From a virus: 24,517 bases of DNA. The notes under the pieces were generated by a model that saw only the letters and a program-made list of their open reading frames with translations, did no database searches and was not told the DNA's origin. The DNA is taken from positions 1 through 24,517 of IMG/VR virus record IMGVR_UViG_3300031787_000802. One strand, 5' to 3'. Of this stretch, positions 17,268 through 24,318 are shown piece after piece. Numbering within the stretch: position 1 is the stretch's first letter; each line of letters opens with the position of its first letter. Both the position numbers and the translations under genes were made by a program.

Positions 17268-19076
17268 TCATGCGGTCGCCACGGCGGGCCCCGTGCCCGG
17301 TGGCGCCATCGGCGGTTGCGCGGCCTCTTGGGCGCGGCGGAGCATGTCCATCCCCTGGTCGATGTAGCGGCGAAGCGACTCGAGGACCGTGTCCGGAGCT
17401 CCATCGGCCCGTTCGCGCAGGTAGACCGCCTGCGCATAGGCAACGGCGGGCGCGAGGTTCACCCGCGGCTCCATCGGCTCGAAGCCCTCCTCGTCGAGGA
17501 TGAGTTCGACCTGCTTGCGGACGTAGTCGAGGCTCGCGGACGCGAGCGTGGCGTCCTCCTCGAGGTCCGGCATGTCGAGCAGGTCTCGGGCCTTCTCGGG
17601 CGTGATGAGACCCGCCGCCATGTACTCCTGCACAGCCTGTTTCCGCGCGGCGGGCGTCTGCGGCAGCATCGAGACCGGGAAGCACTGCAGCGTGAAATCG
17701 TCCTCCTGCAGCTTGAGGTCACTCCACTTCACGCGGCGATTGCCTCGCCGCTCCATGGTGTCGACCTCATAGCCGGGGATCTCGTTCGCCAGGTCGATGC
17801 AGACGCGGGCAGCCTGGATCGCGAAGTCCTCGACGCGCCGCCCGGGGATGATGAACCGCTCGGACTCGATGTCGTGGTACTCGCGCAGGGCCACCGCAGC
17901 GTCCAGTCCGGCCGGCTTCATGCTCGAGGCGGACAGTTGCGAGACGTTCATCAGCTCGTACCCCCACCGGATGCGCTCCTGCACCTGGGAGTAGACCTCC
18001 TGCGGCATGATCGGGGCGACCAACCGCGTCGGCGGCTGCGTCCCGCCCATGTACCGCACGGTCGCGCCGGGCATGTTCGTCAGGTGCTCCTCGATCACGG
18101 TCGACTGAGAGTCGACATACGTGATCGGCGTCGCGTGCAGCTTCGTGTTCGCCTGGATGCACTGCAGGAGCGAGTTGATCTCGTACTGCAGCCCGTAGAG
18201 CCTCAGAGCTCCACCGCGCCCCCAGAACCCGGTGGGCGGAACCTCCCATCGGAAGAACGCGAACGGGAACCGCCTCGAGGCCCACTCCTCGTCCAGCAGC
18301 GTTCCGCCATCGACGCAGATCACGTGCCGTCCCGGCTCGCCGTCGCACCCCAGGTGCCACGCCTCGATCACCTGCACGACGTCGGCGCCCTCCATGTCGC
18401 GGTCGTAGCGGCCGATCGACGGATCCGGGGCGGTGTCCCCGTTCGCCTTCGTTGCCTGGATCGCGCGCGTACGCTCGGACGCCCCGGTCCCGTGCCCGAA
18501 GCGGTCGAGCAGCGCCTGGCGGTCGACCTGGCAGCGCTGAAACAGCGTGGTGGGCTGCCCCCGCTCGGCCTCCCACGGCGGCACGTGGAGCTCCCAGAGC
18601 AGCGCTCGCTCGCACCGGATGCGCTTGTCGTCGACGACGAACTTCACCGCGCTGGTGCCGCAGTTGACGCCCTCCTTCACGGCCTCGGCGAACTGACCAT
18701 AGAAGCCCGAGGCGTGCAGCACGCCCTTGGCGAACTTGTTCCGCCGCTTCGTTGCGCGACGAACCTTGTAGTCCGCACCGTTCGTCACGAACTCGGGAGC
18801 CGGCAGCGACTTCACGAGCTTGGCCGTGATGGTGTCGACGACGGACTGCACGACGTTGTAGCGCATGAGCTCGTCGGCAGCCTCGACCCATCGGCGCTGG
18901 CGGCCCATCCGGCGCAGGGAGTGCCACTTGCGGCCGTCGTACAGTCGCCAGGACGTCAACAGGTCCGAGAACCGCCACCCCTCGCGCTCTGCGACGAACG
19001 TCGCCGAGGCCACGACGTCCTTGTGCGCCTGGTTCTTCGGCGCGAGCCACCACCGGTGTTCGATCTTCACGGGCAT
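17268..19076 (-). CDS. Portal protein
   Basis: 602 residues from the ATG at 19076. An ATG at 19082 adds two residues, but GGAGG at 19084-19088 sits one base from it and 7 from 19076, so the second is preferred. The N-terminal part is basic and Trp-rich (WRFSDLLTSWRLYDGRKWHS). The middle carries VVQSVVDTITAKLVKSLPAP and GVNCGTSAVKFVVDD, the wing/stem strands of podovirus portals. The segment WGYELMNVSQLSASSMKPAG (near residue 400) resembles the loop before the long portal helix, and REYHDIESERFIIPGRRVED follows. It ends in a Pro/Ala-rich tail. The position between the terminase and scaffold genes supports the call. It forms the dodecameric ring through which DNA enters and leaves the head (family knowledge). 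Confidence 0.85.
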   Translation of the reverse strand: MPVKIEHRWWLAPKNQAHKDVVASATFVAEREGWRFSDLLTSWRLYDGRKWHSLRRMGRQRRWVEAADELMRYNVVQSVVDTITAKLVKSLPAPEFVTNGADYKVRRATKRRNKFAKGVLHASGFYGQFAEAVKEGVNCGTSAVKFVVDDKRIRCERALLWELHVPPWEAERGQPTTLFQRCQVDRQALLDRFGHGTGASERTRAIQATKANGDTAPDPSIGRYDRDMEGADVVQVIEAWHLGCDGEPGRHVICVDGGTLLDEEWASRRFPFAFFRWEVPPTGFWGRGGALRLYGLQYEINSLLQCIQANTKLHATPITYVDSQSTVIEEHLTNMPGATVRYMGGTQPPTRLVAPIMPQEVYSQVQERIRWGYELMNVSQLSASSMKPAGLDAAVALREYHDIESERFIIPGRRVEDFAIQAARVCIDLANEIPGYEVDTMERRGNRRVKWSDLKLQEDDFTLQCFPVSMLPQTPAARKQAVQEYMAAGLITPEKARDLLDMPDLEEDATLASASLDYVRKQVELILDEEGFEPMEPRVNLAPAVAYAQAVYLRERADGAPDTVLESLRRYIDQGMDMLRRAQEAAQPPMAPPGTGPAVATA

Positions 19077-19078
19077 CG

Positions 19079-19342
19079 TCATTCCTCCGGAGGCTCGGGC
19101 GCGAACAGCACGCGCTCGACGTCGCTCGCTCCGACGAGCTCGAACGGAGCGCTGGCCGCGCTCGTGGCCATCGGAGCAGGGCCCATCACGACCGAGGCCG
19201 AGAGGTCCACCCCGCCCGCCGATACGCGAACCTGGATCTGCCGCGCTCCGCGAGAGTGCATGTCGTCGACGAAGTCCGTTACCAGTTGGCGAACGGATCG
19301 CGCTTCCTGGACTCGTGCTTCGCTCTCACTCGCTGCTCCCAT
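19079..19342 (-). CDS. 87-residue phage protein overlapping the large terminase gene, unknown function
   Basis: 87 residues from the ATG at 19342, overlapping the large terminase end by 64 bases in another frame. The start is chosen because GAGGAG at 19348-19353 lies 5 bases upstream; a longer frame only shadows the terminase. An inner ATG at 19258 has no good ribosome binding site. The N-terminus is charged and helical (ESEARVQEARSVRQLVTDFV). The remainder is beta-like (ARQIQVRVSAGGVDLSASVV) and ends in an acidic LFAPEPPEE. It lies between terminase and portal genes, where many phages carry small packaging or portal-associated proteins. No family is recognised. Confidence 0.68.
   Translation of the reverse strand: MGAASESEARVQEARSVRQLVTDFVDDMHSRGARQIQVRVSAGGVDLSASVVMGPAPMATSAASAPFELVGASDVERVLFAPEPPEE
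19084..19088 (-). promoter_or_regulatory. Ribosome binding site GGAGG that selects the portal start
   Basis: GGAGG on the minus strand lies inside the last codons of the 87-residue gene. It is 7 bases from the ATG at 19076 but only one base from the ATG at 19082, so it favours the inner start. Confidence 0.7.
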
Positions 19343-20664
19343 GCTTGCTCCTCGGTCGGCGGCTCGGCCGCTTTGCGGTGCGCGGCCCGCCACGACTGAG
19401 TCGCACGCCACCCGTACAGGAGCGCGTCGGTGCAGTGGTTGGGCTGCGTCTTGTCGTTGTCCAGGCCGCCCGGAGCCCACTGCAGGGCTTCCAGTTCCTC
19501 GACGAGCATAGCGCACTCGTCGTCGAGTAGCACCACCTCTCCCCGCTCGAGCGCGCCATTGAGGAGCTTCCGAAATCCGAGCTTGTTCGCTTTCTCGGCG
19601 GGCTCGACTGGAATCAGATACCTCGACCGCATCTCGTTGGCGTATCCCGAACCCAGGGCGCCGACGTCCATCACCACGCGGCACTCCGGATAGAGGCTGA
19701 GCACCGACCGGATCCGCTCGGCAATGGTGGATGGGATGAGCCCGGCCTCCGCCCACCCCTTCACCACCACCGACCGGGTGTCGTGCTGAGACCAGAACAA
19801 CAGGCAGAACGCCGTCGTGGGCTTGATCTCGCTGCTGCCCAAGTCGACCGCGAGCACCGGATACCAACCGTCGAGGCGCGGGAGCTCCTCGAGGAGGTTC
19901 CGGCCACGCTCGAACCGGTACACGAGCCCTTCGCCGGAGTCGATCCACTGGCCGTCCCGGAGCTGCTGCCGCGTGACGTCGTCGAGCAGCGACAGGTTCC
20001 GCTCGTACTCCTCGCGGTTCAAGTGCGGGTTGTCGTCGAGGCGCGCCGGCACGAATGCCCGCGACGGGTCGCCAGGCGCCACGAAGCGACGCTTGACCCA
20101 GCCGTGGCCGATGCCGCCCGGATTCGTCGCGGCGCGCATCCCGAGCGGGGTCGTGTCGCCAGTGCGACGTCGGAGCCGGCTCAAGAGGTACCGATACGGC
20201 TGCTCGGGCCACTGCGTGAGCTCGTCGATCGCAATGCGGTGGAACTCGGCGCCCTGGTAGCGGTAGACGTCGGCAGGGGTCTCGCAAAACCCGAACTGCA
20301 GCCGAGCCCCGCTACCGAAGGTGAAGACCTTGCCGACCTCGGACCAGCGAACGTCCTGCCGACCCGCCAGCCACGACTTCGCTCGGTCCATGATCGCGCC
20401 GGGCAACGCGAGGTCGGGGAGCGTTCGGCGCAGCACGAGCCCGTGGAAGCCCGGGCGGTCGCACCAGCGGAGCATGTCCATCAGCAGGCAGTCGGACTTC
20501 CCTCCGCCGGCAGCCCCGCCGTACAGCGCCTCCAGCGTGTCGAGCTCGAGGAACCGAGCCTGGGGCGGCGTCGGGCGGTGCGGGCAGTACGGGATCCCGT
20601 CGCCGGCTTGCTTGGCACGCTGGGCCTCGATGCGAGCTCGCAACGATGTGAGCGGGTCGCTCAC
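19279..20664 (-). CDS. terL: Terminase large subunit (packaging ATPase and nuclease)
   Basis: 461 residues from a GTG at 20664, in a GTGA overlap with the acetyltransferase stop. The frame upstream only runs antisense-free through that gene and is not used. Walker A is YGGAAGGGKS (residues 48-57) and Walker B is HRIAIDELTQWP. The coupling motif region reads MRAATNPGGIGHGWVKRRFV, the usual TNPGG of this family. The RNase H-like nuclease has three acidic sites: VLAVDLGSSEIKPTTAF, CRVVMDVGALGSGYA and NHCTDALLYGW. Together these are a complete motor plus nuclease, so the gene is intact. The enzyme pumps DNA into the prohead and cuts concatemers, with the small subunit two genes upstream. The TerL assignment is firm; the packaging mode (cos, pac or terminal repeat) cannot be read here. 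Confidence 0.95.
   Translation of the reverse strand: MSDPLTSLRARIEAQRAKQAGDGIPYCPHRPTPPQARFLELDTLEALYGGAAGGGKSDCLLMDMLRWCDRPGFHGLVLRRTLPDLALPGAIMDRAKSWLAGRQDVRWSEVGKVFTFGSGARLQFGFCETPADVYRYQGAEFHRIAIDELTQWPEQPYRYLLSRLRRRTGDTTPLGMRAATNPGGIGHGWVKRRFVAPGDPSRAFVPARLDDNPHLNREEYERNLSLLDDVTRQQLRDGQWIDSGEGLVYRFERGRNLLEELPRLDGWYPVLAVDLGSSEIKPTTAFCLLFWSQHDTRSVVVKGWAEAGLIPSTIAERIRSVLSLYPECRVVMDVGALGSGYANEMRSRYLIPVEPAEKANKLGFRKLLNGALERGEVVLLDDECAMLVEELEALQWAPGGLDNDKTQPNHCTDALLYGWRATQSWRAAHRKAAEPPTEEQAWEQRVRAKHESRKRDPFANW
19348..19353 (-). promoter_or_regulatory. Ribosome binding site GAGGAG for the 87-residue gene
   Basis: GAGGAG on the minus strand, 5 bases before the ATG at 19342 and inside the large terminase coding sequence (Glu-Glu codons near its C-terminus). 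It decides the start of the overlapping gene. Confidence 0.65.
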
Positions 20665-21086
20665 GGGCGCCACTCGACGTGATGCCGGAGCGCCAGGACC
20701 TGCACGCTCGGCGTGAGCCACACGCACCGCTTCGGCACGCCGCCGCACACCTCGAGGACGAGGGCCCGGCCGATGCCCTGCCGCCGCCGCGTGTCGCGCA
20801 CGTAGACGTAGGCCAGCACCCCGGGCGAGCCGCACGCCCAGCCGTACAGGCGGTCCTCGTCGTCGACGTCGCAGGCCACCGCGATCCGATGCCGGCGCAT
20901 GTCCGACGCCACACGGCCGCGCAGGAGGTCCTTCCACTCGCGAGGCTTGGCGCCGGTCATGTCCCCGAGCTGCGAGCCCGACGACTCGGCCCACGAGCTC
21001 GCGATGTAGCCAGCGTCGCGGTCGACGCCGTCCCGGGCGAGCACGCCAGCCCGCAGCACCACCCCAGGCGCAACCTCGCGGGTCAC
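20661..21086 (-). CDS. GNAT-family N-acetyltransferase
   Basis: 141 residues from a GTG at 21086. It is joined to both neighbours by GTGA overlaps: its start overlaps the small terminase stop and its stop overlaps the large terminase start. The acetyl-CoA-binding motif A is AYVYVRDTRRRQGIGRAL (residues 92-109), with the R-x-x-G-I-G-R loop that holds the pyrophosphate. The earlier YIASSWAESS (27-36) is an N-terminal signature I recall from small phage-encoded GNAT proteins. The C-terminus is shorter than in full-length GNATs, so motif B (VWLTPSVQVLALRHH) is compact. The acceptor is unknown. It is cotranslated with the packaging enzymes, but a direct role in packaging is not implied. Confidence 0.85.
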   Translation of the reverse strand: MTREVAPGVVLRAGVLARDGVDRDAGYIASSWAESSGSQLGDMTGAKPREWKDLLRGRVASDMRRHRIAVACDVDDEDRLYGWACGSPGVLAYVYVRDTRRRQGIGRALVLEVCGGVPKRCVWLTPSVQVLALRHHVEWRP

Positions 21087-21592
21087 GAGCCGCCCCCAAG
21101 GCGGCGCACCATCGCCTCCCGCTGCTCTGGCGTCAGGAGCGCGATCGCGTCGTCGACGATGGACTCGGGCGAGTCGTCCGCCGGAGGCTTGAGCTCCACC
21201 GTCTGCTCCACCCGCCTCGCGTCCCCGTACTGGTCGCGGTCCCACTTGCTCAGCAGCCACTGCAGCGTCGAGGCCCGCACCTTCGCCACCGACGGGTCCT
21301 CGACCGTCTCGCCCAGGGCAATGGCGCGCAGGTCCGCCTCGAGGCGCTCCACCTTGGCCGCGTGCGCCGCCGCCAGGGCCTTGCCCCAGCCATCCGGGTC
21401 GTAGCGGCACCAGCCCACGAGCTGCCCGTGCGAGAAGCCGTACTCCGCCGTGATCGCTACCGCTGCCCCGCGCTCGGTGACGCCGGATGCGATGGCGTCG
21501 ACCCACTGCGCCAGAGCCCTCTCTCGAGGCGTCTCTGTTGTCGCGCCTGCGCGCGCGTTTGATGCGAGCTTCTGAGTCTTTTTCGCCCCCAT
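21083..21592 (-). CDS. terS: Terminase small subunit
   Basis: 169 residues from the ATG at 21592, which overlaps the stop of the 54-residue gene (ATGA); the longer frame is a shadow of upstream genes. The N-terminus is basic and Ala/Thr-rich. Residues about 24-62 form a helix-turn-helix-like region (ALAQWVDAIASGVTERGAAV, YGFSHGQLVGWCRYD), expected to bind packaging-site DNA. A coiled-coil stretch follows (LAAAHAAKVERLEADLRAIA). The segment STLQWLLSKWDRDQYGDARR, followed by VEQTVELKP, is a strong signature of the small terminase oligomerisation region in many phages. A short acidic C-terminus with LTPEQREAMVRRLGG ends it. It precedes terL with one gene between them. It recognises the genome end or pac site (family knowledge). 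Confidence 0.85.
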   Translation of the reverse strand: MGAKKTQKLASNARAGATTETPRERALAQWVDAIASGVTERGAAVAITAEYGFSHGQLVGWCRYDPDGWGKALAAAHAAKVERLEADLRAIALGETVEDPSVAKVRASTLQWLLSKWDRDQYGDARRVEQTVELKPPADDSPESIVDDAIALLTPEQREAMVRRLGGGS

Positions 21593-21756
21593 CACGACCT
21601 CTTCGGGCGCGTGAGCGTAAGTCGCACGTACCGACCGCCATCGCCGATCTCGACCACCGCCACGCGAGCTTTCAACCACTCGGGATAGCCTTCGAGCTCG
21701 CGCCGTGTCGCCTGCTCTCCGAGGGTCTGCACGGGCCCGTTGTAGAGCCACTCCAT
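21592..21756 (-). CDS. 54-residue protein between helicase loader and terminase, unknown function
   Basis: 54 residues. The ATG at 21756 overlaps the helicase loader stop and its own stop overlaps the small terminase ATG (both ATGA), which supports expression. It starts MEWLYNGPVQTLGEQATRRE and ends in a beta hairpin-like stretch (VAVVEIGDGGRYVRLTLTR) with a basic tail. The small size, basic end and paired strands would suit a nucleic-acid-binding or regulatory protein. I recognise no family. Confidence 0.65.
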   Translation of the reverse strand: MEWLYNGPVQTLGEQATRRELEGYPEWLKARVAVVEIGDGGRYVRLTLTRPKRS

Positions 21757-22451
21757 CAGACGCCGTCCCCGCGGAGGTCGACTCCGCCCACGTCGTGCAG
21801 CCCCTTGCCGTCCTGGTCCTTCCAGAGGACCTGCCCGAGGCGGCTCATGGTGCGCTTGTCGTAGTAGGCCGCCGCGAAGCGCGCGCGGATGGCCTCGGAG
21901 CGCTTGTTCGTCAGCGCGATGGTCGGAGTCGAGCGGCGCCTCCGCTGCTCGACGAACTCGTGCAGCGCCACACGAGCGTGCTCCGCCTGCCCCTTCTCCT
22001 CGAGGCCGACCTCGTCCAAGACCACCAGGTACTGCCCGCCCAACCGCGCCCACGCCGCAGCCGCGGACCGCACCGAGCGCTCCCTCTCGCGATAGATGCG
22101 GATCACGTCGAGGAAGCTCACGTACCGGCCGCCGAGCTCCGCGAGCGCGTGGGCCGCCGCGATGGTCTTGCCGACGCCTACCGGCCCACCGATCCAGACC
22201 CACGGAGCTCCGCCGGACTGCCACAGCGCCATCCATCGGCGCACCAAGCGCAGCGACTCGGTCTGCTTCGCGGTGCCGTCCAGAACGAGGGACTCGTCGC
22301 CCTCGGCGAGGTGACTCGTGATGCCGCTCGAACGCAGGTTCGCCCGCCGCGATTCGCGGTGCACTCGAGCCTCGTAGCGCTGGATCTCCTCATCGGACTT
22401 CGGGGTCGGGATGGTGCCGAGAACGTCAATCAGGGCCTGCGACAAGAACAT
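21756..22451 (-). CDS. DnaC-like helicase loader (AAA+ ATPase)
   Basis: 231 residues from the ATG at 22451; GGAGG lies 6 bases upstream, and an in-frame upstream ATG lies inside the preceding gene and is rejected. Walker A is GGPVGVGKT (residues 88-96). Walker B is YLVVLDEVGLEEK, with Asp146-Glu147. Sensor 1 is PTIALTNKR, Asn182. A basic RTMSRL segment near 200-205 is in the position of the arginine finger/sensor 2 motif. The N-terminal 70 residues are charged and helical, the part that binds the replicative helicase in DnaC/lambda P-like loaders. It lies directly after a lambda O-like initiator, as loaders often do. It would load the host DnaB helicase at the phage origin. The ATPase class is firm, the loader role is inferred. 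Confidence 0.85.
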   Translation of the reverse strand: MFLSQALIDVLGTIPTPKSDEEIQRYEARVHRESRRANLRSSGITSHLAEGDESLVLDGTAKQTESLRLVRRWMALWQSGGAPWVWIGGPVGVGKTIAAAHALAELGGRYVSFLDVIRIYRERERSVRSAAAAWARLGGQYLVVLDEVGLEEKGQAEHARVALHEFVEQRRRRSTPTIALTNKRSEAIRARFAAAYYDKRTMSRLGQVLWKDQDGKGLHDVGGVDLRGDGV

Positions 22452-22452
22452 A

Positions 22453-23397
22453 TCACACCTCCGGTCCGAAGCGAGACTCGATGCTGGGAACATCCGAAAA
22501 GTCATCTGGCACGTGATTCGGCTGCACGGCCGACCGGGCCGCGAACTCACCAGCTCGGGCGGCGAACAGTGCGAACGGATGGCCGCTCGATGCGGCGTAG
22601 TCGTCGAGGCGGAACGCCGCGACTGCCCGCTTGGTCCACGAAAGAACCTCGCCGTTGCTCGGCGCCTGGTCCATCAGGGCCCGGCACCGGTCGGCAGTGC
22701 GGCGCTCCTCGTGCGTCGGAGTGCCCGCCCGGCCGAGCAGGATGGCGCTGACGGCCTGCACCGAGCCGGCCGCTGGCACACGCCCGAACACCCGCCGCCA
22801 TTCGGCCCACGTGGCCTCGACCACCGGGACCAACACATCACCCGACGGCGGGGGTCGCGCGGGCGCGGGCGCGCGCGTCTCAGACCCCGAACGATGTATG
22901 TGAGGGGTACTGGATCGGGACGGGTCGGGACGGGTCGGGACGGAAGGGGCGGGACTCCCCATGGGACTCCCCGGGGGACTCCCCGGGGGACAAGCTGCAG
23001 GTTTACCCGGGGACGTCCCAGACTTGTCCCCTGGGGACAAAGGTACTCTTTGCCCGCGCTTCTTGGCTTTTTCGGCATCTCGCTTCGCGATGACGGACTC
23101 TCGGGAGGGCTGGTGGTCGTGCCAGTCGTGGAACCGCCAGCCGTTCTGGCTGCCGTTCTGGCCCTCCTCCCACAACCCCACTCTTACCAGTGCGGCGACC
23201 CCTCGGGCGCGGGTCGCCGGGCCCAGGCTCGCGCATGCACGGACGAGCATGGCCTGGGTCACGAACCCGTCCGAGAGGGTCCGAGCGCATGCGGTCCCGC
23301 ATAGCAACCAGACCGAAAGGGCGGCGCCCTGGTCCGCTCCGAGGGCGTCCACCTTCGGATGCTCGCCGAACCCATCGTCCACCCGGAACCAAGTCAT
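22453..23397 (-). CDS. Replication initiator-like protein with embedded repeat cluster
   Basis: 314 residues from the ATG at 23397, which overlaps the preceding stop (ATGA). The N-terminal region (MTWFRVDDGFGEHPKVDALG) and the helical residues 20-105 look like the winged-helix DNA-binding domain of phage replisome organisers; TWFRVDDGF..HPKV is the usual opening. Residues about 106-185 are a Pro/Ser/Gly/Arg linker with low complexity (CPPGSPPGSPMGSPAP). Residues 186-314 form a second helical domain (VVEATWAEWRRVFGRVPAAG, WTKRAVAAFRLDDYA), likely the part that contacts the loader. Gene order (initiator, then DnaC-like loader) matches lambda O-P. The linker DNA holds a GGGAC iteron/palindrome cluster, a candidate origin. 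Function is inferred from fold pattern and context. Confidence 0.75.
   Translation of the reverse strand: MTWFRVDDGFGEHPKVDALGADQGAALSVWLLCGTACARTLSDGFVTQAMLVRACASLGPATRARGVAALVRVGLWEEGQNGSQNGWRFHDWHDHQPSRESVIAKRDAEKAKKRGQRVPLSPGDKSGTSPGKPAACPPGSPPGSPMGSPAPSVPTRPDPSRSSTPHIHRSGSETRAPAPARPPPSGDVLVPVVEATWAEWRRVFGRVPAAGSVQAVSAILLGRAGTPTHEERRTADRCRALMDQAPSNGEVLSWTKRAVAAFRLDDYAASSGHPFALFAARAGEFAARSAVQPNHVPDDFSDVPSIESRFGPEV
22458..22462 (-). promoter_or_regulatory. Ribosome binding site GGAGG for the helicase loader
   Basis: GGAGG on the minus strand, 6 bases before the ATG at 22451. It overlaps the last codons of the initiator gene and decides the start over an earlier in-frame ATG. Confidence 0.7.
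22915..23040. repeat. GGGAC direct repeats and palindromes inside the initiator gene (candidate origin iterons)
   Basis: On the plus strand there are 2.9 tandem copies of TCGGGACGGG (22915-22943, 10-bp period). Three copies of GGGACTCCCC start at 22951, 22963 and 22975 (12-bp period), with a degenerate fourth at 22987. A perfect palindrome GGGACGTCCC spans 23010-23019, and an 8-bp-arm dyad TTGTCCCC-T-GGGGACAA spans 23024-23040. In all, GGGAC occurs nine times in about 120 bases and its complement twice. It falls in all three codon phases of the gene, so a protein repeat alone does not explain it. GGTACT flanks the cluster at 22906-22911 and 23042-23047. The lambda O gene carries its origin iterons in the same way; the origin role here is inference. 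Confidence 0.7.
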
Positions 23398-23561: not shown

Positions 23562-23845
23562 GCGGCCTCCTTGGCCGCGAGTTCGCGTCGGTACCGGCCC
23601 AGGCACGCCCGCGCCTCGAGGAGGAGCGCGCGCCGCCATCGGACGAGCTCGCGCTCGTACCGCCGGAGCGACCTGCGCGCCCCGGAGAGCTGCTCGCGTG
23701 CCTCGGCGAGCTCGAGGCCGTGCGCCGCCCTGCCGGGGCACGGGAGCCTCGCGCCTGGCCAGGCAGCCAGCATGCCGCACATGGCGCAACGCAGCCGCGC
23801 TTCGCCCGTGTCGTGCCGCCCCTCGCGCTCCCACCGGTGGTTCAT
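23558..23845 (-). CDS. Zinc-knuckle-like protein with coiled-coil tail (first of two paralogs)
   Basis: 95 residues from the ATG at 23845, overlapping the RusA stop (ATGA); the stop overlaps the next gene's GTG (GTGA). Residues 1-36 hold the ligands His3, Cys20, Cys23 and Cys36 in RLRCAMCGMLAAWPGARLPC, closely similar to the following gene. Residues 43-95 are an Arg/Glu/Leu-rich helix (LELAEAREQLSGARRSLRRY, WRRALLLEARACLGRYRREL), likely a coiled coil. The pairing of knuckle and basic helix suggests a DNA- or RNA-binding protein of the recombination/replication region. A named family is not recognised. Confidence 0.7.
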   Translation of the reverse strand: MNHRWEREGRHDTGEARLRCAMCGMLAAWPGARLPCPGRAAHGLELAEAREQLSGARRSLRRYERELVRWRRALLLEARACLGRYRRELAAKEAA

Positions 23846-24318
23846 GCCCCGCCCCGGTAGCCTTTGGCCGGCAACGCGGCGCGACCCCGCCACGGATGGT
23901 CCGCCTTTGGGGCGCGGGCGGCGGGCCGCTTGCGGGGCGCTGGCGAGCCGCCGGGGGCAGGCACCTCCGTCACCGTCACCCAGGCGCCGACCTGGCCCTC
24001 GTACAGGCGCTCGACGACCAGGGACACGACGCGGGCGTCGTCGAGGTACAGCACGCCGCACAGCCCGTCGAGGATGGACTTGGCCACGTTGTCCAGGTCT
24101 CCCCGCGCCTCTTCCCGACAAAATCGGATCTCGACTCGATACCACCCCAGCATCGACCAGGGCTTCGACTGCTGGTGCTCGCTGCGGGCCTGCAGCGCGT
24201 ACACGCCGACTCGGCGCTCGTACTCGCGCGTCTTGGCCGGCGTGACTCCGCGCCCGCCTACCACGCGCGCTCGCGCCTTGGGCACCGGGTCCCCGGGGAC
24301 GTGGACGAGCAGGCTCAT
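23842..24318 (-). CDS. rusA: RusA-type Holliday-junction endonuclease
   Basis: 158 residues from the ATG at 24318, in an ATGA overlap with the preceding stop; the frame upstream belongs to other coding. The N-terminus (LLVHVPGDPVPKARARVV) is the first strand of RusA with its basic PxPKxRxR. The catalytic segment is ARGDLDNVAKSILDGLCGVL followed by YLDDARVV: Asp74, Asp76, Asn77, Lys80 and Asp93/94 match the conserved acidic and lysine sites of RusA dimers. RusA proteins are about 120 residues; this one has an extra Pro/Arg/Lys-rich tail of about 38 residues (PAPRKRPAARAPKADHPWRG) of unknown role. It resolves branched DNA made by phage replication and recombination before packaging. The gene looks intact. 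Confidence 0.92.
   Translation of the reverse strand: MSLLVHVPGDPVPKARARVVGGRGVTPAKTREYERRVGVYALQARSEHQQSKPWSMLGWYRVEIRFCREEARGDLDNVAKSILDGLCGVLYLDDARVVSLVVERLYEGQVGAWVTVTEVPAPGGSPAPRKRPAARAPKADHPWRGRAALPAKGYRGGA

Follow-up and report, generated by a model that had tools for sequence, protein, structure and literature searches.

A segment inside the initiator gene of a soil phage is, with a probability that we put at roughly 0.86 from sequence comparison, the core of a theta-type replication origin, where replication would start. The segment lies in a 24,517-nt stretch of viral DNA (hereafter the window), in a gene for a 314-aa initiator (22,453–23,397, minus strand; likely start ATG at 23,397). 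Clustered repeats are found within the initiator coding region, they vary together with residues of the protein that probably binds them, and an AT-richer stretch adjoins them. The order of these parts, the spacing of the words and the helicase or loader genes nearby are in keeping with a theta-type origin such as those of lambda O or pSK41. Beyond this single phage, we lean toward the view that one undescribed origin type is common to several hundred phages and prophages of Actinobacteria: a swappable cassette of helix and words, governed by a three-position code, would lie upstream of a common opening and loading module made of a (CCCGN)n array and a hairpin.

The initiator matches the PHROG 2447 replication initiation protein (E 1.9e-34, residues 49–232 of the extended ORF). 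The window protein matched no family in Pfam at E ≤ 0.1 and none in NCBIfam, a profile search against solved structures gave only weak and implausible hits, and Foldseek returned generic winged helices, none at E ≤ 0.001. AlphaFold2 predicts with confidence a winged-helix domain (about residues 14–95) and a basic helix (99–115), and with low confidence a disordered linker (about 118–188), which includes the region encoded by the repeats, and a helical C-terminal region. The winged-helix domain scores Z 8.0 against 4pql, the structure used for comparison with the RepA_N fold, a value equalled by unrelated winged helices. A model made without an alignment was of poor quality and was discarded. 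The next gene downstream, in the same direction (21,756–22,454, minus strand), encodes the DnaC-like helicase loader that the first-pass annotation had named (PHROG 50, E 8.8e-17), and in several loci genes for a helicase loader or a DnaB-like helicase are found near the initiator. Also on the minus strand of the window are a head-to-tail connector or portal-like protein (17,271–19,082; PF12236, PHROG 332), a 326-aa ORF with a weak GNAT acetyltransferase match in its C-terminal part (20,664–21,641) and, upstream of the initiator, an ORF without a PHROG match that by eye may encode a RusA-like resolvase (23,845–24,316).

A recount on the plus strand at 22,917–23,038 returned the nine GGGAC words and two GTCCC complements previously reported within about 120 bases. 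The palindrome GGGACGTCCC (23,010–23,019, two abutting half-sites), the 17-bp dyad TTGTCCCCTGGGGACAA (23,024–23,040, proposed paired half-sites), both without an assigned strand, and the 10-bp and 12-bp tandems were likewise all located in the sequence. GGGAC is not enriched across the contig (84 copies against 90.8 expected from shuffling), and the 142-nt segment is the densest in the contig for any 5-mer when all 142-nt stretches are compared. In 5000 within-gene synonymous-codon shuffles, the segment's 11 words compare with a mean of 2.4 and a maximum of 7, and in 2000 synonymous-codon shuffles of the window gene a count of 11 was reached by no 5-mer.

An alternative possibility is that the repeats are a by-product of a low-complexity Pro/Ser/Gly/Arg linker in the protein. 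The 12-bp tandem reads in frame as PGSP/MGSP, so that codon phase alone leaves a protein repeat possible there, and in many homologs the array encodes PDPTR-like peptides. The original argument from codon phase therefore stands insofar as the GGGAC words in the window occupy all three phases, and falls short for this tandem. Across homologs, however, the peptide encoded by the array shifts (PDPTR, PSRPV, QPNPTQ, PIPSRP) while the C-rich period stays constant, and synonymous shuffles are exceeded at p ≤ 0.05 by the tandem array in 153 of 188 homologs and by the top word in 84 of the 188. In 10 homologs the initiator ORF ends after its DNA-binding part and the array lies past the stop codon, in non-coding DNA, where a protein-level cause therefore fails; the word cluster, too, lies past the initiator stop codon in Anatole, G4 and Sarge. 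The linker explanation is thus largely refuted already, and we regard it as improbable in the extreme. The earlier proposal of selection at the DNA level is borne out by the excess over synonymous shuffles, by persistence in the non-coding DNA of truncated genes and by the covariation of helix and word described below.

The initiator protein has 177 matching records in the phage collection, 100% of them from phages of Actinobacteria. Homologs drawn from viral-contig scans, one genome-contig scan and 28 annotated phage regions amounted to 275 gene copies, or 203 once near-duplicates were dropped, and in nearly all 203 the linker DNA has the same order: a word cluster, then a (CCCGN)n array, then an AT-richer stretch that often contains a hairpin. 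The first part consists of 3–11 copies of a lineage-specific 5-bp word (GTTCG, GTGAC, GTCCC, GTTAC, GTCCG and others), with spacings that peak at 11–12 and 7–8 bp. The second is a C-rich tandem, mostly CCCGA, with variants that include CCCGT, CCCAA, CCCAT, CCCGTA and CCAAGA. An automatic detector of 5–6-bp C-rich arrays passes 171 of the 203 homologs, with a median distance of 417 nt between start codon and array, and an array is visible by eye in several of the remaining 32, the window among them. Of 143 strong arrays, 139 carry the C-rich sequence on the coding strand. Immediately 3′ of the array, the AT fraction rises from a surrounding level of about 0.38 to 0.62 in the first 10-nt bin and 0.50 in the second, and 83 of the 171 arrays are followed within 45 nt by a perfect hairpin, where 5.1 are expected. 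Hairpin loops of CTAAAG, CTAACG or CTGACG directly 3′ of the array (L007, L019, L062, L091 and others) occur far above chance. A pattern of three CCCGW units matches 51 of 52 phage records, and a reversed control pattern matches none of the 52; the matches listed form one cluster per record, which coincides with the initiator gene wherever positions were compared. Scans of seven phage genomes put the highest density of the genome's own word in the linker in six, with a tie in the seventh.

At least four CCC runs on one strand are present in 146 of the 171 detected arrays, and it could be proposed that the G-rich strand forms a G-quadruplex or R-loop that starts replication, with the words in a secondary role. 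Some arrays, such as those of the CCAAGA and CCATTA types, nevertheless lack such runs, and the word cluster is under a constraint of its own that is linked to the protein, so we consider this proposal quite unlikely. Cumulative GC skew, which had been suggested as a check, was uninformative: its extremes lie away from the array in seven nearly complete actinophage genomes and in the window, and it lends no support to an origin there.

The homolog comparison also revises how the repeats of the window are to be divided. The 10-bp tandem that the first-pass annotation took for origin iterons is instead the (CCCGW)n block conserved family-wide, C-rich on the coding strand, which forms the separate second part of the linker (22,915–22,943, minus strand); the alternation of CCCGT and CCCGA units is the sole reason why GTCCC occurs inside it. 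This leaves as the likely iteron set eight words at 22,951–23,038 (minus strand), a candidate cluster that exceeds the synonymous-codon null and has six words in one orientation and two in the other (23,034–23,038, 23,026–23,030, 23,015–23,019, 23,010–23,014, 22,987–22,991, 22,975–22,979, 22,963–22,967 and 22,951–22,955). Directly 3′ of the array, 20 nt with 50% AT against 30% for the gene make a candidate unwinding site (22,895–22,914, minus strand), and a short hairpin ACCCC...GGGGT (22,884–22,908, minus strand) occupies the site of a stronger hairpin in many relatives. Most arrays are longer and more regular than that of the window, whose 3′ stretch is only moderately AT-rich and whose hairpin is weak; in L005, the closest relative, the hairpin stem is 9 bp long. 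L005 (63% identical) keeps the array block and has a word cluster of GTGAC instead of GTCCC. GGGAC itself is thus not kept when the linkers of homologs are compared, but a lineage-specific word cluster is, and it is tied to the helix: GGGAC is replaced by another word when the basic helix changes and is not conserved across the family. With this amendment, the comparison supports the idea of an origin whose iterons lie in the initiator gene and are probably bound by its product.

The link between protein and word is concentrated in three residues of the basic helix R106–R117 (codons at 23,047–23,082, minus strand), identified by mutual information and leave-one-out prediction. Words were counted strictly 3′ of the helix codons, since circularity was to be avoided, and the helix was aligned without gaps; 168 homologs fall into 12 word classes that were defined post hoc from the same data, and 35 of the 203 are unclassed. 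Positions +17, +21 and +24 from a conserved tryptophan, which are residues 109, 113 and 116 in the window, share 1.11, 1.36 and 1.06 bits of excess mutual information with the word, against 0.33 bits for the next best of 107 columns; the helix neighbors +16 and +18 reach at most 0.33 bits. These three residues predict the word in 139 of the 168 homologs (83%) when each is left out in turn, and still in 122 of 168 (73%) when prediction may draw only on homologs of at most 50% identity in the winged-helix domain, all closer relatives being barred. In the same barred test, the nearest winged-helix domain scores 0.15 and random helix triples average 0.22, with a maximum of 0.41. Lysine at 113 accompanies GTCC words in 42 of 43 cases (p 2.9e-30, a value that ignores kinship), methionine accompanies GTTCG or GTTGC in 41 of 44, and glutamine accompanies GTGAC in 20 of 29. 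The window, with E109, K113, Q116 and the word GTCCC, is consistent with the family trend. Among named phages of the family, Schmidt carries GTCCC and Bauer GTTCG, and the pair L232 and L233 points to a shift from GTCCC to GTCCG when residue 116 goes from Y to A. The i, i+4, i+7 spacing would make the three residues point to the same side of the helix, and the covariation suggests that they are the word-reading positions.

Because the helix codons and the words are contiguous, a single exchange of about 100–200 bp swaps both, and together they may form a swappable cassette of reader helix and word address at the phage origin. For pairs that share at least 65% identity in the winged-helix domain, 76% of the three positions differ when the words differ and 11% when the word is the same; L097 and L098 are 90% identical in this domain, yet their helices and words differ. 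A tree from which the helix was left out implies 78 changes of word. The tests listed, restricted to well-supported branches, contain 3–5 independent word changes each, almost all in the expected direction, and none of these sign tests reaches p < 0.05 singly, 3–5 changes being too few. It might be argued that helix and words, as neighboring stretches of DNA, simply stay linked through recombination and that no functional recognition is involved. Cassette exchange predicts differences at other helix positions too, and close pairs with different words do show them (0.64), but linkage would act equally along the helix, whereas the signal is limited to i, i+4 and i+7 on one face, so that mere neighborhood is insufficient. 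The same residue-word pairs also recur with all relatives above 50% identity barred, and linkage without recognition is very unlikely. Many of the phages (L015, L019, L040, L042, L044, L045, L050, L054) have, immediately upstream of the initiator, a gene annotated as an HNH endonuclease or "endonuclease," which might favor exchange of the cassette.

A mechanism may be proposed from these features. The N-terminal winged-helix domain and the basic helix would bind the word cluster that follows a few bases after their codons, with residues 109, 113 and 116, to judge from their covariation, reading the word from one helix face. Initiators assembled over words about one helical turn apart would place strain on the adjacent (CCCGN)n array, and the AT-richer stretch beyond it would open. 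The replicative helicase could then be placed at the opened stretch by the C-terminal region together with the DnaC-like loader from the next gene, and the frequent hairpin 3′ of the array might, more tentatively, aid priming or loading. Exchange of the helix and its words would give a new origin specificity. It is also conceivable that the initiator binds the words as an operator or roadblock on its own transcription, for repression or timing, and that replication starts elsewhere. The element does lie within a transcribed gene, and covariation, which points to a binding relationship, is silent on its purpose. An operator role is nonetheless unlikely given the distance of the element from the 5′ end of the gene, the origin-like order of words, conserved C-rich array, AT-rich jump and hairpins, and the helicase loader or DnaB-like helicase gene close by in several loci.

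Origins nested in initiator genes are already known, as is modular covariation of initiator domains with their origins. Lambda O has its iterons mid-gene beside an AT-rich stretch (PMC7466680), two features that are shared here. The family described here differs in its short 5-bp words, present in both orientations, and in its additional CCCGN array and hairpin, and sequence kinship to lambda O is not detectable, since the window protein has no Pfam match. In pSK41 Rep, the N-terminal domain binds Rep boxes in the center of rep, the ori-encoded linker is dispensable in trans, and a pPR9 chimera exchanged about 500 bp covering the N-terminal domain plus ori (PMC5703833). The RepA_N domain is absent from the Pfam matches (E ≤ 0.1) of 28 family members, and in contrast to RepA_N proteins, word specificity in the present family appears to lie in a helix that follows the winged helix, next to the extra CCCGN array. 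The RepA_N initiator of PLE satellites of Vibrio cholerae has a DNA-binding domain that co-varies and swaps with its origin as a module (PMC8263062), but that origin is intergenic and whole domains are exchanged, whereas here three residues beside the words co-vary in a large phage family. A few residues of the iteron-related domain of geminivirus Rep also co-vary with the iteron, and recombination exchanges both (PMC2974675), although geminivirus Rep is a rolling-circle initiator and its biology is unrelated. The actinophage initiator RepA of cluster A mycobacteriophages is similar in that its ori is thought to lie in or beside repA, where the paper reports no repeated motifs (PMC7157519). 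In the literature searched, which comprised work outside subscription, the array, the three-residue code and the origins of the PHROG 2447 phage family are undescribed; the array sequence led only to a paper on avian rDNA, and papers on actinophage origins do not describe the array. As far as searched, the new elements are the three-residue code, the array-plus-hairpin module and the family-wide scope.

If this reading is correct, largely unnamed genes, annotated in many records as "hypothetical protein," would become one origin family with a readable specificity. The origin word could be predicted from the initiator sequence alone and the origin placed in hundreds of genomes. Cassette exchange would decide which co-resident phages can use each other's initiator, and replication cross-reaction between phages would become testable. 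The helix-word pairs also constitute a natural data set for following how a DNA-reading protein changes in step with its address, and attention is drawn to the conserved C-rich array and hairpin. The initiator ORFs of L018, L040, L049, L050, L084, L096, L189, L193, L206 and L207 are short, about 111–150 aa; they stop after the DNA-binding part and leave the array in non-coding DNA, and their C-terminal function may be encoded by a separate gene or be absent. Finally, a second helix type, RAEAGRKGG, accompanies AAGC-type words (L018, L084, L097, L100, L134, L197), and a third, GNHRRWH, accompanies ATCGG words (L124, L190, L202, L204).
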